A stretch of 64,000 nt of DNA from Bacteroidota bacterium (GTDB lineage Bacteria; Bacteroidota; Ignavibacteria; Ignavibacteriales; Melioribacteraceae): positions 1 to 64,000 of the forward strand of contig JAHJUE010000023.1 of NCBI GenBank assembly GCA_018829205.1, given 5' to 3'. Of the stretch, positions 32,326-41,949 are shown in pieces. Each line of letters opens with the position of its first letter. Position 1 is the first letter of the stretch. Made by a program: the position numbers and the translations under genes. The notes beneath the pieces were generated by a model. The model was not told where the DNA came from. It was given only the letters and a program-made list of their open reading frames with translations, and did no database searches.

Positions 32326-33726
32326 TTAGAATCCTCTGTTTTTTCCTGTAAATATCTGTATAACGGTATCAAAAATAATTCTTATATCCAAACCGAAAGT
32401 CCAGTTTTCGATATACCAAATATCATATTTTATTCTTTTCTTTGCACGCAGTTTATTTTCTTCGTAATCGTCCACGTCCCCTCTAAGTCCGTGTATTTGA
32501 GCCCACCCCGTAATTCCCGGTTTAACCCTATGGCGCAGTTTTATTTCTTCAACAAACTCGCTGTACATGTCGTTAAATGGAATTGGGTGAGGTCTTGGAC
32601 CGACGACGGACATATCACCTTTTAAGACGTTCCAAAATTGCAGTATCTCATCAAGATTAGTTTTTCTTAAAACAGATCCGATTTCGGTAATTCTGCTGTC
32701 TCCCTTGGTAACAATTTTATTCGATTTATTATCAAGTGACGATTCCAGTCTCATTGTACGGAACTTATAACATTTAAAATGTTTGTTGCCGGTACCGACT
32801 CTATCCTGCAGAAATAACACAGGCCCTTTAGATGTAAGTTTTATTAAAATTGAAATTACAGGAAACAGCCACCACAAGACAAATACAATCACAAAAAAGG
32901 AAAATACAATATCAAAAACTCTCTTTAACAATCTCCATTGAATTTCATCAAGCGGATTGTTGCGAACGGTAATTATAGGGAAGTCGCCAAAATAATTAAT
33001 TTGAAATTTGCTGGACAGGAATTTAAAGTACTCAGGAATTATGTAGGAGTTAACTGCGTTTTTATCACATATCTTTATTGATTTTTCAATATACTCTGAA
33101 TATATGCTTGGAATTGCGATTACAACATCGTTTATATTATTTGTCTGAATAATTTCTTCAATCTTATCAAAATCTCCCAGAATATTTTCTCCGTTTGAAC
33201 CATCAACCGAAATATATCCGGCAAAACCGAATCCGAATTCGGAGTTGTTTTCAATAAATTCTTTAAAGGACTCGCTTAATTCACCGGTACCTACAATTAG
33301 TATTTTTTTTAATAAACTATGTTTCTTCCTTTGGCTGAAAACCCATTTACGGACGGAATATTCTTTTGATAGTACAAGAAACCATACAAAAGCAGAATTA
33401 AATAAAATGAAATTTCTTGTAAAAAGGTCTTCTTTAACGGAAAAAATAAAAAGTACAGAGAATAATAATTGAACAAAAACAACTTTTGATACTTGAATTA
33501 TCTGCAGACTGAAGGGACGGTAATTTAAGTCTTGATATAATCTAACAGAACGGGAAGTAAAAAACCAGATCAAATTCAGCAACAGCAAAAGTATAAATAT
33601 AAAATTTCTATCAAGTAATATTTGTAATGATTGAGCAAGAACCCCGGCCGCCAAAAAGGAAATATTAATAATAATTAGATCAGAGAATATTCTTAGACTT
33701 TGAATAGATTTTTGATTTATCAACAT
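32326..33726 (-). CDS. Polyprenyl-phosphate sugar-1-phosphate transferase (WcaJ/WbaP type)
   Basis: A 466-residue membrane enzyme that starts a surface polysaccharide by loading a sugar phosphate onto undecaprenyl phosphate. The order is four N-terminal membrane helices (about 12-115), a Rossmann-like cytoplasmic domain (about 135-255), one further helix (about 272-295) and the catalytic bacterial sugar transferase domain. That domain contains KRVFDIVFS, KCYKFRTMR, VVGPRPHPIPFND and RHRVKPGITGWAQ. The enzyme family uses UDP-glucose, UDP-galactose or other UDP-sugars; the sequence alone does not decide. Two glycosyltransferases lie just upstream in the same direction. Confidence 0.93.
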   Translation of the reverse strand: MLINQKSIQSLRIFSDLIIINISFLAAGVLAQSLQILLDRNFIFILLLLLNLIWFFTSRSVRLYQDLNYRPFSLQIIQVSKVVFVQLLFSVLFIFSVKEDLFTRNFILFNSAFVWFLVLSKEYSVRKWVFSQRKKHSLLKKILIVGTGELSESFKEFIENNSEFGFGFAGYISVDGSNGENILGDFDKIEEIIQTNNINDVVIAIPSIYSEYIEKSIKICDKNAVNSYIIPEYFKFLSSKFQINYFGDFPIITVRNNPLDEIQWRLLKRVFDIVFSFFVIVFVLWWLFPVISILIKLTSKGPVLFLQDRVGTGNKHFKCYKFRTMRLESSLDNKSNKIVTKGDSRITEIGSVLRKTNLDEILQFWNVLKGDMSVVGPRPHPIPFNDMYSEFVEEIKLRHRVKPGITGWAQIHGLRGDVDDYEENKLRAKKRIKYDIWYIENWTFGLDIRIIFDTVIQIFTGKNRGF

Positions 33727-33755
33727 AATTGCAACCTGTCAGCCAAATATTAATT

Positions 33756-34871
33756 CTAATTTCTAAATTGCCCGTATTTTGTTTCAACAAATTCTTTGAT
33801 ATTAATTTCGAAATTTTTTCTTGAAAAACTTTCCGCATGTTTAGATATTTCAATTGGATCAAACTTATCTTTATTTTGCTCAAAATTGTTGACGGCATCA
33901 ATAATACTTTTAGTATTCTGTTCATCAAAGAGAATTCCGGTTTTGTTGTGAATAACAGAATCGGAAGCGCCGCCAATTTTATATGCGATTACCGGAGTTC
34001 CGCAAGCCATTAACTCTACGTTTGTTATTCCGAAATCTTCTTCCGCGGCAAATACAAATGCTTTGGCCTTCATCATATATTTTTTTAATTCTGAGAATGA
34101 TTGATGTCCTAATAGTTCGATATTTTTACCGGCCGCTGCTTTAATTTTATTCATGTCAGGTCCGTCTCCAATTACAACTAACTTTTTATCGGGCATTTGC
34201 GCAAAAGCGTTTACAATCAAATCAACTTTTTTATAAGGAACGAACCTTGATACAACAAGGTAATAATCATCTTTGTTGCTTTCAGTTTCAAATTTATCGG
34301 TATCAACCGGCGGAAATATTACTTCCGAATCTTTACCGTAAATTTTTTTTATGCGTTTCGCAACATGATTCGAGTTCGCGATAAAATAATCAACCCTATT
34401 GGAAGTTGTTGAGTCCCACAATCTTATTTTATGAAGCATTCTTTTAGCAATATAACCTTTAAATCCTTTATCCAAATTTGATTCTTTCAAGTACTGGTGG
34501 TATAAATCCCATACATAGCGGATTGGAGTATGGCAGTAACAGATATGGAGCTGATTTACGCTCGTGATTATTCCTTTTGCAAACGAATGGGAGCTTGTTA
34601 ATACTACATCATTCCCGGTTACATCATGCTGCTCAACTGCAAACGGGAATAATGGGAAATAATTTCTGAAATGTTTCTCCATAAAAGGGAATTTTTGAAG
34701 ATAACTGGTTTTAGAATTTTTCCCTTTTAAAATTATTTCTCTATGTTCATCATTTAAGAAATCGAACAAAGCATACACATCAGCATCAGGCCATAGGTTT
34801 GTAAACGACTCAACGCATTTTTCAGAACCCATATAATCTAAAAACCATTCATGCACAATTGCTAATTTCAA
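33756..34871 (-). CDS. GT4-family glycosyltransferase
   Basis: A 371-residue retaining glycosyltransferase of the GT-B fold. The N-terminal acceptor domain begins LAIVHEWFLDYMGSEK and resembles WbaZ-type mannosyltransferases. The C-terminal donor domain has VVSRFVPYKKVDLIV and the EX7E-like EEDFGITNVE followed by CGTPVIAYKIGG. It is likely a cytoplasmic or membrane-associated enzyme adding one sugar to a lipid-linked repeat unit. It is 11 bases downstream of another GT4 gene and 29 bases upstream of the initiating transferase gene. Donor and linkage are not known. Confidence 0.9.
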   Translation of the reverse strand: MKLAIVHEWFLDYMGSEKCVESFTNLWPDADVYALFDFLNDEHREIILKGKNSKTSYLQKFPFMEKHFRNYFPLFPFAVEQHDVTGNDVVLTSSHSFAKGIITSVNQLHICYCHTPIRYVWDLYHQYLKESNLDKGFKGYIAKRMLHKIRLWDSTTSNRVDYFIANSNHVAKRIKKIYGKDSEVIFPPVDTDKFETESNKDDYYLVVSRFVPYKKVDLIVNAFAQMPDKKLVVIGDGPDMNKIKAAAGKNIELLGHQSFSELKKYMMKAKAFVFAAEEDFGITNVELMACGTPVIAYKIGGASDSVIHNKTGILFDEQNTKSIIDAVNNFEQNKDKFDPIEISKHAESFSRKNFEINIKEFVETKYGQFRN

Positions 34872-34882
34872 ACTAAATCCCC

Positions 34883-35998
34883 TTAAGTTCTCTTATTTAT
34901 GACACTATAATATAAATTTTCCGTCTTCTTTACCATAGAATCCAATGTGTAATTCTTCATAATTTGATCGACTGCATTTTTTGAAAAAGCGGAGAATAAA
35001 AAACTATTATTTATGATTTTAATTAAACAATCTGCAGCGTCCTCTGGTTTATTAATATCATAAAGTAAACCGTTCACCGATTCTTTAACTACATCTTTAT
35101 TACCCGCAACGTTTGAAGCTATAACCGGAAGTCCAACCGCCATTGCTTCCAGAACAGCCAAAGGCAGACCTTCCCAGCGTGATGTTGAAAGATAACAATG
35201 TGATTTTAATAAATAGTACTGAGGATTTGTGACCGCACCCCAGAAAACAAAATTATCACGTACCGGACTATTTTCAATTTTACTTTTAAGTTCTTTTTTC
35301 CCTTCCCCTTCGCCTAAAACATTTATTACAAATTCTTTTGTTTTGAGTTTTGATCTCAAACTAAGCGCAATTCCAAACAGCAATCCCGAATTCTTCGCAT
35401 AATCAAAACGGGTAATTGTTATTATGTTAAATTTTTCATTTTGGCTCAAATGAGTATTAATCCTTTTCTCCGTAACCTCAACGCCGTTTTCAATTAATTC
35501 AATTCTATTTGAAACGCTAATTTTGTTTTTAAGCATTAATTCTTTTTCACTTTGAGATACTGCTATAATTTTTGAAGTGACGATTGATAATGCTCTCTCG
35601 AAAATAAGATATAAATTTCTTTTTAAGAATCCGTAACTGCCGATGTGCAGACCGTGAAAAGTATGGATGCAGCTTCTTCCGGATAATACGGAAATTAATC
35701 TTCCGTATACGCCCGCTCCTTTTCCATGTGAATGTATTATTCTTATTTTATTTTTCTTAACTACATAAATAAGTTTTAGGAGTGCAAATAACGATATTTT
35801 CCTGTGAGGTATTTTAGTAATTCTGCTTCGTCCCGCCAGCCTTGAATATTTTTCATAGTAAGGGAAATCATCAGGACAAGCGAAATAATTTTCAAATTCG
35901 TTTGATAGATATTTTGCGAGTTTATATAAGTGTTCCGGTCCGCCGCCAAAATCAGCCCTAACAGTAATGAATAGAATTTTTATTTTTTCCTTATTCAA
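34883..35998 (-). CDS. GT4-family glycosyltransferase
   Basis: A 371-residue GT-B glycosyltransferase. The N-terminal domain holds the FGGGPEHLYKLAKYL loop and HSHGKGAGVYGRL. The donor domain has ITRFDYAKNSGL, the EX7E motif in WEGLPLAVLEAMA and GLPVIASNVAG. It is not closely similar to the neighbouring GT4. The start appears to be TTG at 35998, because an in-frame TAG lies five codons upstream and no ATG or GTG intervenes. About 150 bases of non-coding sequence separate it from the polymerase/ligase gene upstream, so it may have its own promoter. Confidence 0.9.
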   Translation of the reverse strand: MNKEKIKILFITVRADFGGGPEHLYKLAKYLSNEFENYFACPDDFPYYEKYSRLAGRSRITKIPHRKISLFALLKLIYVVKKNKIRIIHSHGKGAGVYGRLISVLSGRSCIHTFHGLHIGSYGFLKRNLYLIFERALSIVTSKIIAVSQSEKELMLKNKISVSNRIELIENGVEVTEKRINTHLSQNEKFNIITITRFDYAKNSGLLFGIALSLRSKLKTKEFVINVLGEGEGKKELKSKIENSPVRDNFVFWGAVTNPQYYLLKSHCYLSTSRWEGLPLAVLEAMAVGLPVIASNVAGNKDVVKESVNGLLYDINKPEDAADCLIKIINNSFLFSAFSKNAVDQIMKNYTLDSMVKKTENLYYSVINKRT

Positions 35999-36149: not shown

Positions 36150-38198
36150 TCAGGCTTTATGTTTTTCTTTATATTGAAAATAAAATGCGAAATTTAATCC
36201 AGTTATAAACCAAATCATAGTAATTATTTCATGATCGCCGAAATTCCATTCCGTTAGTCCGGCTACTAAAAATGACACAAAGCAACCGATTGCGCCTAAA
36301 GAAAATGAAGAAGCAAAAGGTATATTCTTAAGGCTATTAAATATTTTTATATTTTCGATAAATATTTTCAATAGTAGCAGAGCGACAATAATAAAACCGA
36401 AAGCTCCTAATGTTGCGAGTAGATGAACGTAATTATTATGTAAATGACCTTGGATTTCTTTATCATACTTTGATTTGTATTTTATATACAAACCAGCTAA
36501 ATCAATGTCACCCACTCCAAAAATAGGATTATCCTTAAATATTTCCCAGCCGGCAGTCCAAAGTGATATTCTTACAGTATTTGAAGGAAGGTATGGATCG
36601 AATATACTGGCTAATCTACTTCGTTTCACCTTTGTGAGGAATAAATTATTACCCTCATATGAAATTGACTGAGGTATAAAACCAGCTTCAATTTTTGAGA
36701 TTATTTTCAATGAATCGATTATATGTTTATCAATATCGTAAATTGTACCGTTTGCAGTTACGGCAAATAATTTTTGTTCTTCTTGATATAGATTATATAT
36801 TTTTTCATCGCCGGCATATTTAATATCCAAAGTTTTCTGAGAACTAAAATCATACTTTTTAATTCCGCTTTTGTCGGAAAATAATAATTCATTGTTGAAA
36901 AGTTTTATAAAATTCAGGTTACCTTCAATCGGCGGAGAATCAATAATTTCTGCGGGCAAATAGTTATTAAGTTTATAAATTTTTAGTTTTCTGTCCGTTG
37001 TAACAAGAACCATTCTTAATGAATCAATTTCAAGCAGAACGTTATTATTAATCTGAGGGAACCTTGTGCCTTTTTTATCCGCATCGAATACAGTTAATCC
37101 GCTGTCGCTGTCAAGCACATACAAATAATTGTTTCTGATTTTATAATCCCGTGTATATCCGGGCGACAACAATTCCGCATCAGTCTCAAATTGACCGTTT
37201 ATATTTTTATTAAGGAGAATAAACCGTGTATCTATTAAAGCCGCGCAATAAAGACTATCGTTCCATTTCAATAATTTTACAATAGGTTCCGGCAGCTCTA
37301 ACTTGTTAATAATTTTATTCCCGGAAAAAGTTATTAGTCCATTTTCATAATCCGATAAATAATATTTCCCGCCGTTATCCGGTAAAATATCGGAAGCTCT
37401 TCCTTCTGTATCAAAGGAAGAAGATTCGCTATAAATATTTGAATCATAGTTGTATATATAAACACTACTTCCATTTTTTGCCGAAAACACCAAGTAAACC
37501 AATGCAAGTACTACAGGCACCAAGTACAAATATTTTTTTCTAATCAATAATATAAAAACAATTCCGGCGGCTACTCCAAGCCATCCGGTCCGTTTATAAG
37601 TGGCTGCTAACGCCGCAGCCGAAATAATAAATCCCAATAAAATTATAATCTTATTTTTATAACTTCCCTTTTCATTAATTAAAAAAGCGAAGAGAAAAAT
37701 TACAGTAAAACTTAACAATTCCGAAGTTGTGATCGGATACTGAAAAACCGAAGGTCCCGAGCCGGTTATACTGAATAATCCTGTAATAAAGTATTGATAT
37801 GAGTTAAATAAATAAATTGCCGCGCTAATAACGGCAAAACTGATATAAATTTTGAAGAATAATTTCGTTTTTTCTTTTGAATCCGCGGAAGCAATTATAA
37901 TATATACTACAGGGAGCAGTAATACTCTTTTTAATAAATTATTAAATGACTGCGGCAGGTTTTCAGAAAATATAGTAGATAATATTTCGGCTGAAATAAA
38001 AAGAATGAAAAATATTTCCAGTCCATTTTTTTTAAAAGCGTTTTCTTTTAATATGGATGATTTAATAACTATAAAAATCAGCGCCCCGTAGTAACCTAAC
38101 TGGTTTACAAATATGGAATTAGTTAAACTGGCTAAAAATACTACGGTAAAAAATAATATTATGTTATCAATTAATTTGATCGATGATACATTTTTCAA
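36150..38198 (-). CDS. O-antigen ligase/polymerase-family protein with beta-propeller-like insertion
   Basis: A 682-residue inner-membrane protein. Residues 1-240 form about nine or ten membrane helices. Residues 543-682 carry the Wzy_C signature RISLWTAGWEIFKDNPIFGVG split around 543-563, the conserved HLHNNYVHLLATLG (585-598) and three last helices. Members join or ligate lipid-linked glycans on the periplasmic side. Between the two halves, about 241-525, the usual short periplasmic loop is replaced by some 280 residues of short repeated strands such as YLYVLDSDSGLTVFDAD and KLKIYKL, which look like a beta-propeller. The insertion may bind the glycan or an envelope partner. The gene is close to an ABC exporter and the glycosyltransferases. 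Confidence 0.82.
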   Translation of the reverse strand: MKNVSSIKLIDNIILFFTVVFLASLTNSIFVNQLGYYGALIFIVIKSSILKENAFKKNGLEIFFILFISAEILSTIFSENLPQSFNNLLKRVLLLPVVYIIIASADSKEKTKLFFKIYISFAVISAAIYLFNSYQYFITGLFSITGSGPSVFQYPITTSELLSFTVIFLFAFLINEKGSYKNKIIILLGFIISAAALAATYKRTGWLGVAAGIVFILLIRKKYLYLVPVVLALVYLVFSAKNGSSVYIYNYDSNIYSESSSFDTEGRASDILPDNGGKYYLSDYENGLITFSGNKIINKLELPEPIVKLLKWNDSLYCAALIDTRFILLNKNINGQFETDAELLSPGYTRDYKIRNNYLYVLDSDSGLTVFDADKKGTRFPQINNNVLLEIDSLRMVLVTTDRKLKIYKLNNYLPAEIIDSPPIEGNLNFIKLFNNELLFSDKSGIKKYDFSSQKTLDIKYAGDEKIYNLYQEEQKLFAVTANGTIYDIDKHIIDSLKIISKIEAGFIPQSISYEGNNLFLTKVKRSRLASIFDPYLPSNTVRISLWTAGWEIFKDNPIFGVGDIDLAGLYIKYKSKYDKEIQGHLHNNYVHLLATLGAFGFIIVALLLLKIFIENIKIFNSLKNIPFASSFSLGAIGCFVSFLVAGLTEWNFGDHEIITMIWFITGLNFAFYFQYKEKHKA

Positions 38199-38209
38199 AT
38201 TACAATCCG

Positions 38210-40063
38210 TTAATTAAACTGCATTTCGTATAGTTTTTTATAAAGACCATTTTTTTCTTGAATAAGTGTTTGATGATCGCCGTCTTGAATAATACGGCCT
38301 TGATCCATTACAAGAATTCTATTTGCGTTTCTTATTGTGCTTAAACGGTGAGCAATTACAAAGGTAGTTCTTTCTTTCATAAGTCTCTCAATGGCTTCCT
38401 GAACAAGCAACTCCGATTCGTTGTCCAATGCGGAAGTAGCTTCGTCAAAGATCATAATAGGAGGATTTTTCAGCAAGGCTCGTGCAATAGAAATTCTTTG
38501 TCTTTGTCCGCCGGATAGTTTAGTTCCTCTTTCGCCGATTATAGTTTCATATCCGTGAGGCAGTTCAAGAATAAAATCATGAGCATTAGCGGCTTTAGCG
38601 GCTGCGATAATTTTTTCTTCGGGGTAATCTGTAAACCCGTATGCTATATTATTTATTACTGATTCATTAAACAATACTATTTCTTGCGTTACAATTCCCA
38701 TTAATTTTCGGAGATCTTCAATTTTAATTTCTCTGGAATCAATTCCGTCAAATAATATTTGTCCGCCAGTCGGATCATAAAATCTTGGTATTAAATCTAC
38801 GAGAGTAGATTTTCCAGCGCCGCTGCTTCCAACAAGTGCAATTATTTGACCTTTATTTACCTCAAAATTTATATCGTTTAGAATAAGTTCATCCGAATCG
38901 TCATAATGGAAAAATATATTCATGAATGAGATCTTAGAATTAAAGGTATCAATTGAAACGGCATTTTGTATGTTTCTAATTTTAGGTTCTGTTTCCAATA
39001 TTTCAAATATTCTGTCGGCCGCTGCGCTTGATTCCTGAATTTTATTATTAACACTGCTTAATTCTTTTACGGGAGGCATGATGCTGAAAATCGCGAAAAG
39101 AAATCCGAGAAACTCACTTGCTTTTAAAGTGCCTTCCTGTAAAACAAGATGACCGCCGTAATAAATTATTGCAACACCAACAACCACACTTAAAAATTCT
39201 GTAATAGGAGCGGCGGCGTTTCTTATGCGCACCATTTTTAGTACAGTTTTTCTAAGCTTGTTTGTTTGATTTATAAACTTTTTGTTTTCATAATTTTCCA
39301 TGCCGAATGCTTTAACAATTTTGACACCGGAAATAGTCTCATGAAGAATCGTTGTTAAATCGGCCATTTTTTCCTGTAGTATTGTACTTTGTTTTCGGAG
39401 AATTAATCCAATCCATGAAATAAAAAACAATGAGAAAGGCAGAACTGCAAAAGAGAATAATGTAAGTCTCCAGCTTATTGAAAAAGCTATTCCTAAAAAA
39501 ACAATTATTGTTAACGGTTCTCTAACAAGATTAAGAAAAACGGTTGACACACTAGTCTGCACAACATAAACATCATTAACAATTCTTGAAATTAAATTAC
39601 CAGTTTTCTCACCTTTAAAGTAGCTCATAGGAAGTTTATGTAGATGTTTATAGGCTGCATCTCTTAAATCTTTTATAACTCCCTGTTCAACAAAAGCGAG
39701 AAAAAATGCCTGGAAATAAGCGAAGATATTTTTACCCAAAAACGCAATAAAAATCAACAAACAGATTTTTAAAAGAACCTCACTTTGATCGCCTGAAAAA
39801 ATATAATTTTTAATATCTTCTGTAAAAGATGTAATTTGTTCATTTAATTCCGGTGGAATAATAATACTATCATTAGCGTTATCAGATTTTTTTTCGATAG
39901 AAATGCTTTCGGTACCACTATTAAAAAGGGTTTCAAGCAAAGGTATGGTTAAATAAACAGAAGCTCCGTTAAGCAATGCATAAAGAACCGTGCAAATTAT
40001 AGAAACGCCCAAATGTTTCCAATACGGCTTCACATAATTAAGTATCTTATAATATGTTTTCAA
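38210..40063 (-). CDS. MsbA-like ABC exporter
   Basis: A 617-residue half-transporter with its membrane and ATPase domains in one chain. Six membrane helices span about 15-340 with a long periplasmic loop after the first. The nucleotide-binding domain has Walker A GSSGAGKST, signature LSGGQRQRIS, Walker B IMIFDEATSALD and the H-loop VIAHRLST. The family includes MsbA, the lipid A-core flippase, and lipid-linked oligosaccharide flippases. The polysaccharide context makes either plausible. The start is TTG at 40063, directly after the TGA of the lipoprotein gene, so it is probably translationally coupled. Confidence 0.92.
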   Translation of the reverse strand: MKTYYKILNYVKPYWKHLGVSIICTVLYALLNGASVYLTIPLLETLFNSGTESISIEKKSDNANDSIIIPPELNEQITSFTEDIKNYIFSGDQSEVLLKICLLIFIAFLGKNIFAYFQAFFLAFVEQGVIKDLRDAAYKHLHKLPMSYFKGEKTGNLISRIVNDVYVVQTSVSTVFLNLVREPLTIIVFLGIAFSISWRLTLFSFAVLPFSLFFISWIGLILRKQSTILQEKMADLTTILHETISGVKIVKAFGMENYENKKFINQTNKLRKTVLKMVRIRNAAAPITEFLSVVVGVAIIYYGGHLVLQEGTLKASEFLGFLFAIFSIMPPVKELSSVNNKIQESSAAADRIFEILETEPKIRNIQNAVSIDTFNSKISFMNIFFHYDDSDELILNDINFEVNKGQIIALVGSSGAGKSTLVDLIPRFYDPTGGQILFDGIDSREIKIEDLRKLMGIVTQEIVLFNESVINNIAYGFTDYPEEKIIAAAKAANAHDFILELPHGYETIIGERGTKLSGGQRQRISIARALLKNPPIMIFDEATSALDNESELLVQEAIERLMKERTTFVIAHRLSTIRNANRILVMDQGRIIQDGDHQTLIQEKNGLYKKLYEMQFN

Positions 40064-41299
40064 TCAATAACCGATATATTCTGATTTAATATAGTTTAAT
40101 CCGCAGCCTCCGTAAACCGATAATGTATCGAAGGGCATACGCTTTTTATAGTTATAAATAATTATCTGCGAATCATTAAGATTCCAGCTATCAAATATAA
40201 GCAAATCGCCGTGTACAATAAAATTCAGAGCCCCGCTGTTATTAAATTCTTTTATTATCGAAGCCCCATCAGTTTCGATCAGCAATAATTTAGAATCTTC
40301 ATCATTGGCAGGATTCTTAAAACTAATCATTAAATAATCTTCATCCCTGCTCCATTCAATTTTCCCAGGCTCCAATTCCGAGGAAAAAACAAAATCTCTT
40401 TTGTTCTTATCATAATTATTCAGGAAATAAGAAATTGAAGAATCGCTTCCTTCGGCTTTTAAGAAATATTTTCTATTTGGGGAAACAAGCCTAGGAAGAG
40501 GTAAACGCGGCACAGGATATCCGTCATTTAAAATATTATAGATTTTTTCACTCGATTCTATTTTAACGCCTTTCGCATTGTATGTGTTTTTAATCTGTAT
40601 TAAATCTGAAGTATTTGTAGAATCGAGTATATTAAAATAAACATTGTAATACCACGAGGAATCAAATTCAGAGAATACTTGAAGACCTTTTCCTATTTTT
40701 TCAAGTCTTTTTATTGTATTGTCATAAATATTAAATTTATATACGCGTACATCTGTTATATAAGGAAATCCGGCATCACGTCCGTAAGTAAGCGCTGTAT
40801 AAAAATAAGCAGGACTAAAATTCTTTGGATAAGATAAGTTTAATATTTTCCTACCCCATTTGCTCCAGATAATTCGCTTCTTCTTTTTCAGCAGATCATA
40901 TTTAAATAAAGCCGGTCTGTTAAAATCTTCTCCTAGAAACGGGACATAGCGGTATTCATCATAAACTTTTACACTATCGCCATAATAAATTGAATACTCG
41001 CCAATTAGAGAATCGCAGAAGTAATTAAAGGCTTTTTCTCCCGCCGACAGCGAAGAGTTAAAATATCCTATATTTATTGTGTAAAAGTCATCATCGTTAA
41101 TTAGAAATAGCGAATCGGAAATTATATTTTTGAGATGATTTTTTAATGAGTCGGCTTGATAAATATTTAATTCATTACTTATCCTGATCGAATAAGGTTT
41201 TGGTATTACATAATTAATTTTGCTGTTATCCGAACAGGACCAGATAATAATTAAAGCAAGAAGATACAATAAATTTTTTTTAATATTCTTTTTTTTCAC
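40064..41299 (-). CDS. Lipoprotein of unknown function with propeller-like repeats
   Basis: A 411-residue lipoprotein. The start is taken as GTG 41299, which overlaps the protease stop as GTGA; an upstream in-frame ATG would place a long hydrophilic leader before the signal. The signal is basic then hydrophobic and ends IIIWSC, a lipobox, so the cysteine is the lipid anchor. The mature protein has repeated short strand motifs, including PNRKYFLKAE, WSRDEDYLMISF and KLLLIETDG, in the style of TolB/WD40-like propellers. I do not recognise a named family. Position between the M50 protease and the ABC exporter suggests an envelope role. Confidence 0.72.
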   Translation of the reverse strand: MKKKNIKKNLLYLLALIIIWSCSDNSKINYVIPKPYSIRISNELNIYQADSLKNHLKNIISDSLFLINDDDFYTINIGYFNSSLSAGEKAFNYFCDSLIGEYSIYYGDSVKVYDEYRYVPFLGEDFNRPALFKYDLLKKKKRIIWSKWGRKILNLSYPKNFSPAYFYTALTYGRDAGFPYITDVRVYKFNIYDNTIKRLEKIGKGLQVFSEFDSSWYYNVYFNILDSTNTSDLIQIKNTYNAKGVKIESSEKIYNILNDGYPVPRLPLPRLVSPNRKYFLKAEGSDSSISYFLNNYDKNKRDFVFSSELEPGKIEWSRDEDYLMISFKNPANDEDSKLLLIETDGASIIKEFNNSGALNFIVHGDLLIFDSWNLNDSQIIIYNYKKRMPFDTLSVYGGCGLNYIKSEYIGY

Positions 41300-41949
41300 G
41301 CGATGTTCTTTATTAAAAGAAACATTTTTAATATATAATTTACAACGGAGAAAAAATAATCCCATAACGGACTATATATAAATAAAAATAATATGAAAGT
41401 CCCGTAAAAACCCAGACTTAACAGTTTGGCGGTATATTTGTTAGGAAATAAATCATATAATATGTGCGAACCGTCAAGAGGAGGAAAGGGCAATAAATTA
41501 AAAGCGAAAAGAAATATGTTAAAAAACACGCCGAACCATAAAACATTTTTTATTAATTCAAAACCATCCGGAATTAAATTATCAATTAAGGCAAAAAATA
41601 AAAAGAATAATACTGCAAGAACAAAATTTGATATTGGCCCGGCTGCAGAAACCAAAGCATCGTCTTTAAGCGGATCCTTAAAATTATTTCTGTTTACAGG
41701 AACAGGTTTAGCCCATCCGATTAATGCAAATCCCGATGCAAACGCCATAATAGGCATAAGAACACTGCCTACAAGATCAATATGTTTTAACGGGTTTAAT
41801 GTCATACGTCCGAGATCTTTAGCCGTTGAATCTCCTTTTTTATTTGCGGTATATGCATGCGCAAATTCATGGACAGCTAACGACACAAAAAATATAGGTA
41901 GAAAGTATAAAAATGAAATAAGGCGCTCACTAACTTGAATATCAGGCAT
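41296..41949 (-). CDS. Site-2 protease-like M50 family metallopeptidase
   Basis: A 217-residue integral membrane zinc protease. The zinc motif HEFAH is at 27-31 in the first membrane helices, and the third ligand lies in FNLLPFPPLDGSHIL near residue 150. It lacks a PDZ domain, so it belongs with the compact YwhC/sporulation factor IVFB-like group rather than RseP. These enzymes cut substrates within the membrane. The start overlaps xer by eight bases and the end overlaps the lipoprotein gene, so the three are tightly linked. The substrate is unknown. Confidence 0.9.
   Translation of the reverse strand: MPDIQVSERLISFLYFLPIFFVSLAVHEFAHAYTANKKGDSTAKDLGRMTLNPLKHIDLVGSVLMPIMAFASGFALIGWAKPVPVNRNNFKDPLKDDALVSAAGPISNFVLAVLFFLFFALIDNLIPDGFELIKNVLWFGVFFNIFLFAFNLLPFPPLDGSHILYDLFPNKYTAKLLSLGFYGTFILFLFIYSPLWDYFFSVVNYILKMFLLIKNIA

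Follow-up and report, generated by a model that had tools for sequence, protein, structure and literature searches.

The gene at 36150..38198 on the minus strand of the window (the whole 64,000-nucleotide stretch of DNA that was analysed) encodes a 682-residue protein with a TTG start, a WaaL/Wzy_C-type ligase that carries an inserted domain predicted to be a seven-bladed beta-propeller. Going by its sequence, the gene product is probably a WaaL-type O-antigen ligase, which would join sugar chains to outer-membrane lipid. An initial annotation, made from the sequence of the window, had proposed a propeller-like insertion in an O-antigen ligase at 36624-37478, corresponding to residues 241-525, and the present analysis confirmed it. 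While enzymes of this class are ordinary, the propeller domain is not: close relatives are without it, and no published description of a propeller-bearing O-antigen ligase was found in the open-licence literature searched.

The ligase core

The protein can be divided into three parts, all encoded on the minus strand. One is the first membrane part (residues 1-242; 37473..38198), with nine predicted transmembrane helices and with R203 and W206 at the periplasmic start of helix 8. Another is the insert (residues 243-526; 36621..37472). The last consists of the catalytic periplasmic loop and the final three helices (residues 527-682 and the stop codon; 36150..36620), where R543, GVGD (561-564) and H585-L-H587-N588-x9-G598-x2-G601 are located. 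The Pfam Wzy_C domain is matched at E 3.3e-21 (76.1 bits against a curated cut-off of 31.7), and this match is broken in two: profile positions 2-65 lie at 37458-37634 and positions 75-148 at 36384-36599, with about 284 residues between them.

The insert-bearing proteins are referred to as long forms hereafter. Wzy_C was matched in all 53 aligned long-form sequences, and across 58 long forms H587-N588, G598, G601 and R543 are invariant, while R203 is kept in 55. The combination by which WaaL-type ligases are recognised, H[NSQ]-x9-G-x2-G with a conserved arginine, is present in the large periplasmic loop. As for the motifs named in the initial annotation, NPIFGVG (557-563) and H585-x-H587-N588 are found as described; the R-x3-W is actually R203-x2-W206 (within K-R-T-G-W). 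Its view that the enzyme is apparently a working one is supported by the sequence, the histidines, arginines and glycines being invariant or nearly so.

The model contains 12 helices, nine ahead of the large loop and three after it. The K/R averages are high in the predicted cytoplasmic loops (3.0, 1.4, 2.3, 2.7 and 1.9) and mostly low in the predicted periplasmic loops, the exception (1.7) being the loop that contains R203. This positive-inside pattern places the propeller in the periplasmic loop between helices 9 and 10. The layout of WaaL-type ligases, about 12 transmembrane helices with a large periplasmic loop between the ninth and the tenth, is thus seen in both the model helices and the K/R distribution.

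The sole solved relative of the core that the sequence search found is WaaL of Cupriavidus metallidurans (7tpg; E 2.5e-6), to whose H-N pair H587 is aligned. From this alignment and the known motif, we take H587 to be the WaaL catalytic histidine. A conserved histidine of the large periplasmic loop mediates the ligase activity of WaaL (PMC9938171). The insert-free relative L094, predicted at pLDDT 89, was superimposed on 7tpg at Z 30.2 over 372 residues (rmsd 4.1), and its next structural match was FtsW at Z 15.9. Among the matches listed for the whole long-form model, WaaL is absent, and propellers fill that list. Judged from these models, the ligase core is probably WaaL-like: it has in common with 7tpg the catalytic H-N in the large periplasmic loop and the arginine and, going by the insert-free relative, probably also the core fold. 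The difference is that the 7tpg chain has 413 residues and no globular insert, whereas the ligase here has about 284 extra residues in the form of a propeller.

Wzy_C spans both ligases and polymerases, so that the protein might instead be a Wzy-type polymerase in which the propeller sets chain length. We consider this very unlikely. The H-N-x9-G-x2-G motif and the match to the WaaL fold argue against it, as do the conserved position of the gene on the chromosome, next to an MsbA-like exporter, and the occurrence, on another contig of the same genome, of two other Wzy_C proteins that could polymerise.

Predicted fold of the insert

In the alignment with insert-free relatives, the extra run comprises residues 243-524; it sits at the start of the large periplasmic loop, ahead of R543, GVGD and the catalytic His-Asn motif. 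An AlphaFold2 model of the whole ligase, built on an alignment of 53 sequences (homologues 33-49% identical to the 682-residue ligase), had a mean pLDDT of 90.6 and a pTM of 0.84. In this model, residues 243-525 form 28 beta strands and no helix. A Foldseek search with the long-form model gave 1,301 solved chains with E values no higher than 0.001; the best 50 of them are mostly recognisable propeller proteins or complexes containing such proteins. A second structure aligner gave Z 20-22 over about 260 residues to WD40 propellers (for example, 4v0n: Z 22.4, rmsd 2.8, 254 residues). The structure prediction and the comparison with solved propellers, by which the fold had been proposed to be checked, therefore both support it.

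Read from the strand order, the ring has six complete blades and a seventh to which each end of the insert contributes two strands, 7c and 7d being N-terminal and 7a and 7b C-terminal. The aligned ranges to WD40 proteins start mostly at residues 251-257, which agrees with a split seventh blade. With blades assigned in this way, the four-stranded blades, the closed ring and the solved matches are those of a seven-bladed WD40-like fold. The signature of the LVIVD repeat (PF08309) is below the cut-off in the ligase (16.7 bits against 20.2) and was matched at E 0.1 in 9 of the 53 aligned sequences. What we claim is the fold; we do not assign the insert to any propeller family defined by sequence. 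A search for close sequence kin among the solved propellers gave weak matches only (YncE-like proteins and the designed Scone-E, E 1e-5).

Insert-free relatives and origin of the insert

The insert-free ligases L094-L113 (about 390-410 residues; other Ignavibacteria and allied bins) have the same motifs, a locus with an MsbA-like exporter and, in most cases, an NAD kinase, and they lack the insert. In them the two flanking parts of the core meet exactly at the boundaries of the insert, and many of them are at the same locus; the domain is accordingly an insertion and not a terminal fusion, as had been noted at first.

When a tree was built from the 389 columns of the shared core, with the insert excluded, the 58 long forms fell on one side of one branch (SH-aLRT 89), and the presence of the insert needs 1 change on this tree, compared with a mean of 17.9 for shuffles. 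The tree fits a single gain of the insert. Loss of the insert in the short forms is formally an alternative to a single gain, yet the other Wzy_C proteins listed have no insert.

Several possible sources of the insert were considered and rejected. The neighbouring conserved gene at 40064-41365 gave a profile-profile probability of 0.4% (hhalign, E 0.13). When the same genome was searched for a free-standing donor, a single further place was hit, at E 0.07. In the search of the phylum for a donor or a second ligase family, the other hits look like generic propeller stretches, the best being a partial profile match of E 2.6e-9 in a 1177-residue frame.

Distribution across genomes

An intact full-length long form was found in 44 of 96 relatives; one further copy is broken by stops, and two are split between contigs. 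About half of the sampled relatives do without the long form, and it is therefore not essential to the group. In the scan of named genomes, full-length matches were confined to Ignavibacteria-group, Bacteroidetes/Bacteroidota, Chlorobiota or unclassified bins. Among 294 genomes of the class, they occur in families f1-f3, which belong to the same order, and in f13, which belongs to another order; about 100 other genomes of the class match only beside the insert, on one flank or on both, in frames mostly of 390-560 residues, and have a ligase of roughly 400 residues that lacks it. When 395 genomes of the phylum were searched with the insert profile, strong hits (E 1e-59 or better) were obtained only in frames of ligase length (683-709 residues), and the remaining hits were partial and had E 2.6e-9 or weaker. 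Among the Wzy_C proteins listed for 90 phylum genomes, no other is split by a domain of the size of the insert. The insert-bearing ligase is thus common only within part of one class, Ignavibacteria, and the possibility raised at the outset, that the arrangement is widespread and already described, did not hold for the genomes and open-licence papers searched.

Three minor observations concern other copies and other Wzy_C proteins. One is that the Wzy_C domain of another protein of the phylum (G369:C12:28091-28798) contains roughly 85 additional residues. Another is that the ligase copy in L075 (CP053447.1, 6001-8018) is frameshifted and the copy at G093:C1:3539449-3541484 contains stop codons; the two may come from one genome. 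These broken copies indicate that the ligase gene can be lost. The last is that contig 29 of the same genome as the window encodes two further Wzy_C proteins of ordinary length (L002 and L003), which are candidate O-antigen or exopolysaccharide polymerases.

Conservation and possible role of the propeller

The length of the insert is kept at 279-293 residues across the 53 aligned sequences, and its mean conservation is 0.37, compared with 0.54 and 0.59 for the core. A clear contrast is seen within the propeller. The d-a and b-c loops of blades 7 and 1-3 (residues 264-369; 37092..37409, minus strand) have conservation values of 0.50-0.65, and every other loop has 0.23-0.48. The conserved residues of the insert are T264, G266, D283, G287, P305, D323-R325, S345-G347 and D363-x-D-S-G-L-T369; in the f13 family, which has the most distant long forms, D363 and D365 are replaced by E and G347 by N. 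The conserved half probably faces the active site, because its loops share the face from which both linkers leave; it is, by strand order in the model, most likely turned toward that site.

A conserved face of this kind suggests a conserved partner, which may be a loop of the enzyme itself, the lipid A-core acceptor or an envelope protein. The patch could also represent purely intramolecular packing with no ligand. Alternatively, the propeller might serve only as a structural lid or spacer, giving stability to the catalytic loop without binding anything. In keeping with such a role, it is the face deduced to touch the enzyme that carries the conserved residues, the rest of the insert varies freely, and the conservation of the insert is well below that of the core. 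Nevertheless, the length and the polar DxDSGLT, DTR and SPG loops have been kept over a wide divergence, beyond what a spacer seems to need, and the insert-free relatives do without a propeller; we rate this reading as improbable.

On the basis of the model, we lean slightly toward a WaaL variant in which the propeller lies over the active-site cleft as a wall or docking module and seats the acceptor or the glycan; this seating is favoured on top of intramolecular docking. The following series of steps can be envisaged. Lipid A-core would reach the periplasmic leaflet through an MsbA-like flippase, an undecaprenyl-PP-linked glycan would be assembled by the sugar transferase and the glycosyltransferases encoded nearby, and the ligase would move this glycan onto lipid A-core by the His-dependent WaaL reaction. 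Both linkers would exit the propeller at the place of the blade 7 b-c loop, judging from the strand order, so that the top face would be toward the membrane enzyme. The conserved half of this face (blades 7 and 1-3) would dock on or wall the active-site cleft and most likely help to seat the acceptor (lipid A-core) or the growing glycan end, and the variable half (blades 4-6) would be directed away from the enzyme. Points that weaken this reading are the score of the exporter below the MsbA cut-off, the replaced patch residues in f13 and the lack of a long form in about half of the relatives sampled. A tentative possibility, less probable than not, is direct binding of the donor glycan or of the lipid A-core acceptor by the propeller, which would thereby decide what is ligated. 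The putative binding platform beside the active site that had been proposed initially fits the position of the insert and the one-sidedness of the conserved patch.

Beta-rich domains on the active-site side are found in the protein O-mannosyltransferases, which have a MIR domain, and in the Emb arabinosyltransferases, which have carbohydrate-binding modules. These enzymes belong to other fold families and have other added domains, and they are analogous only in how they may work. A further analogy is PorZ of Porphyromonas gingivalis, a two-propeller surface protein that binds anionic LPS (PMC8545088). Its propellers bind an LPS glycan within the wider group that holds Ignavibacteria, and this precedent makes glycan binding by the ligase propeller plausible by analogy; PorZ is, however, a separate protein with no enzyme part. 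WadA of Brucella is, like the ligase here, an O-antigen ligase with an added domain. In this bifunctional enzyme, however, the addition is a glycosyltransferase at the N-terminus, located in the cytoplasm, and not an insert on the periplasmic side (PMC9938171).

A different partner would be an envelope protein (the Lpt transporter, the MsbA-like exporter or a periplasmic lipoprotein), in which case the propeller would be a docking site coupling ligation to transport and would not bind sugar. Propellers often act as protein-interaction platforms, and WD40 scaffolds and BamB are the best structural matches of the insert. A conserved partner is also suggested by the conserved face, and many loci have a conserved lipoprotein-like gene upstream of the exporter. 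However, no candidate partner gene was seen to match the insert exactly in its occurrence, the lipoprotein-like gene being undetected in the f13 long-form loci, and the conserved face is deduced to join the enzyme and so may not be free for a partner. Such docking appears unlikely to us.

To our knowledge, acceptor recognition by WaaL enzymes is poorly understood. If the propeller does itself bind the acceptor or the glycan and decide what is ligated, the long forms would be a class of O-antigen ligases that have a recognition module of their own in the periplasm, and acceptor choice in WaaL enzymes would become separable and testable. A ligase with a globular domain beside its catalytic loop, together with natural insert-free kin at the same locus, forms a ready comparison pair.

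Gene neighbourhood

All genes described here are on the minus strand. The ligase gene is adjoined by an MsbA-like ABC exporter gene (38210..40063), which scores 550 bits with TIGR02203, below the equivalog cut-off of 602; a PglK-type identity was rejected, the PglK model giving 239 bits as compared with the 550 for MsbA. The order exporter-ligase, followed in most cases by NAD kinase and thioredoxin, is shared by the long forms and the insert-free forms examined. The same genome has LPS genes, with a Kdo transferase at 154 bits and an LptD match just above the cut-off, which favours the O-antigen ligase reading.

This neighbourhood bears on the question of whether the enzyme could be an O-oligosaccharyltransferase, in which the glycan is attached to a protein and the propeller recognises the acceptor protein. 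The Wzy_C family includes such enzymes, and there is a weak similarity to TIGR03097 (putative O-glycosylation ligase; 24.7 bits, far below the cut-off of 188). Since an MsbA-like exporter adjoins both the long and the insert-free ligases and the nearest solved structure is WaaL, we regard this as quite unlikely.

Between the ligase and NAD kinase genes, the window contains a set of three genes (32326-35998): two for family-4 glycosyltransferases (34883..35998 and 33756..34871) and one for an undecaprenyl-phosphate glucose phosphotransferase (32326..33726; TIGR03023 above its cut-off), which presumably starts the lipid-linked glycan. In some relatives a single small gene is found there, and the set possibly reflects a local exchange of glycan genes. 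In L057 and similar long forms, a family-2 glycosyltransferase gene lies at this position; a WaaE-like name for it was rejected, as no NCBIfam model scored above its cut-off and only Glycos_transf_2 was matched. On the other side, the conserved lipoprotein-like gene at 40064-41365 lies upstream of the MsbA-like exporter gene in many long-form loci, and an orthologue of it has a sub-threshold SPOR match (E 0.036).
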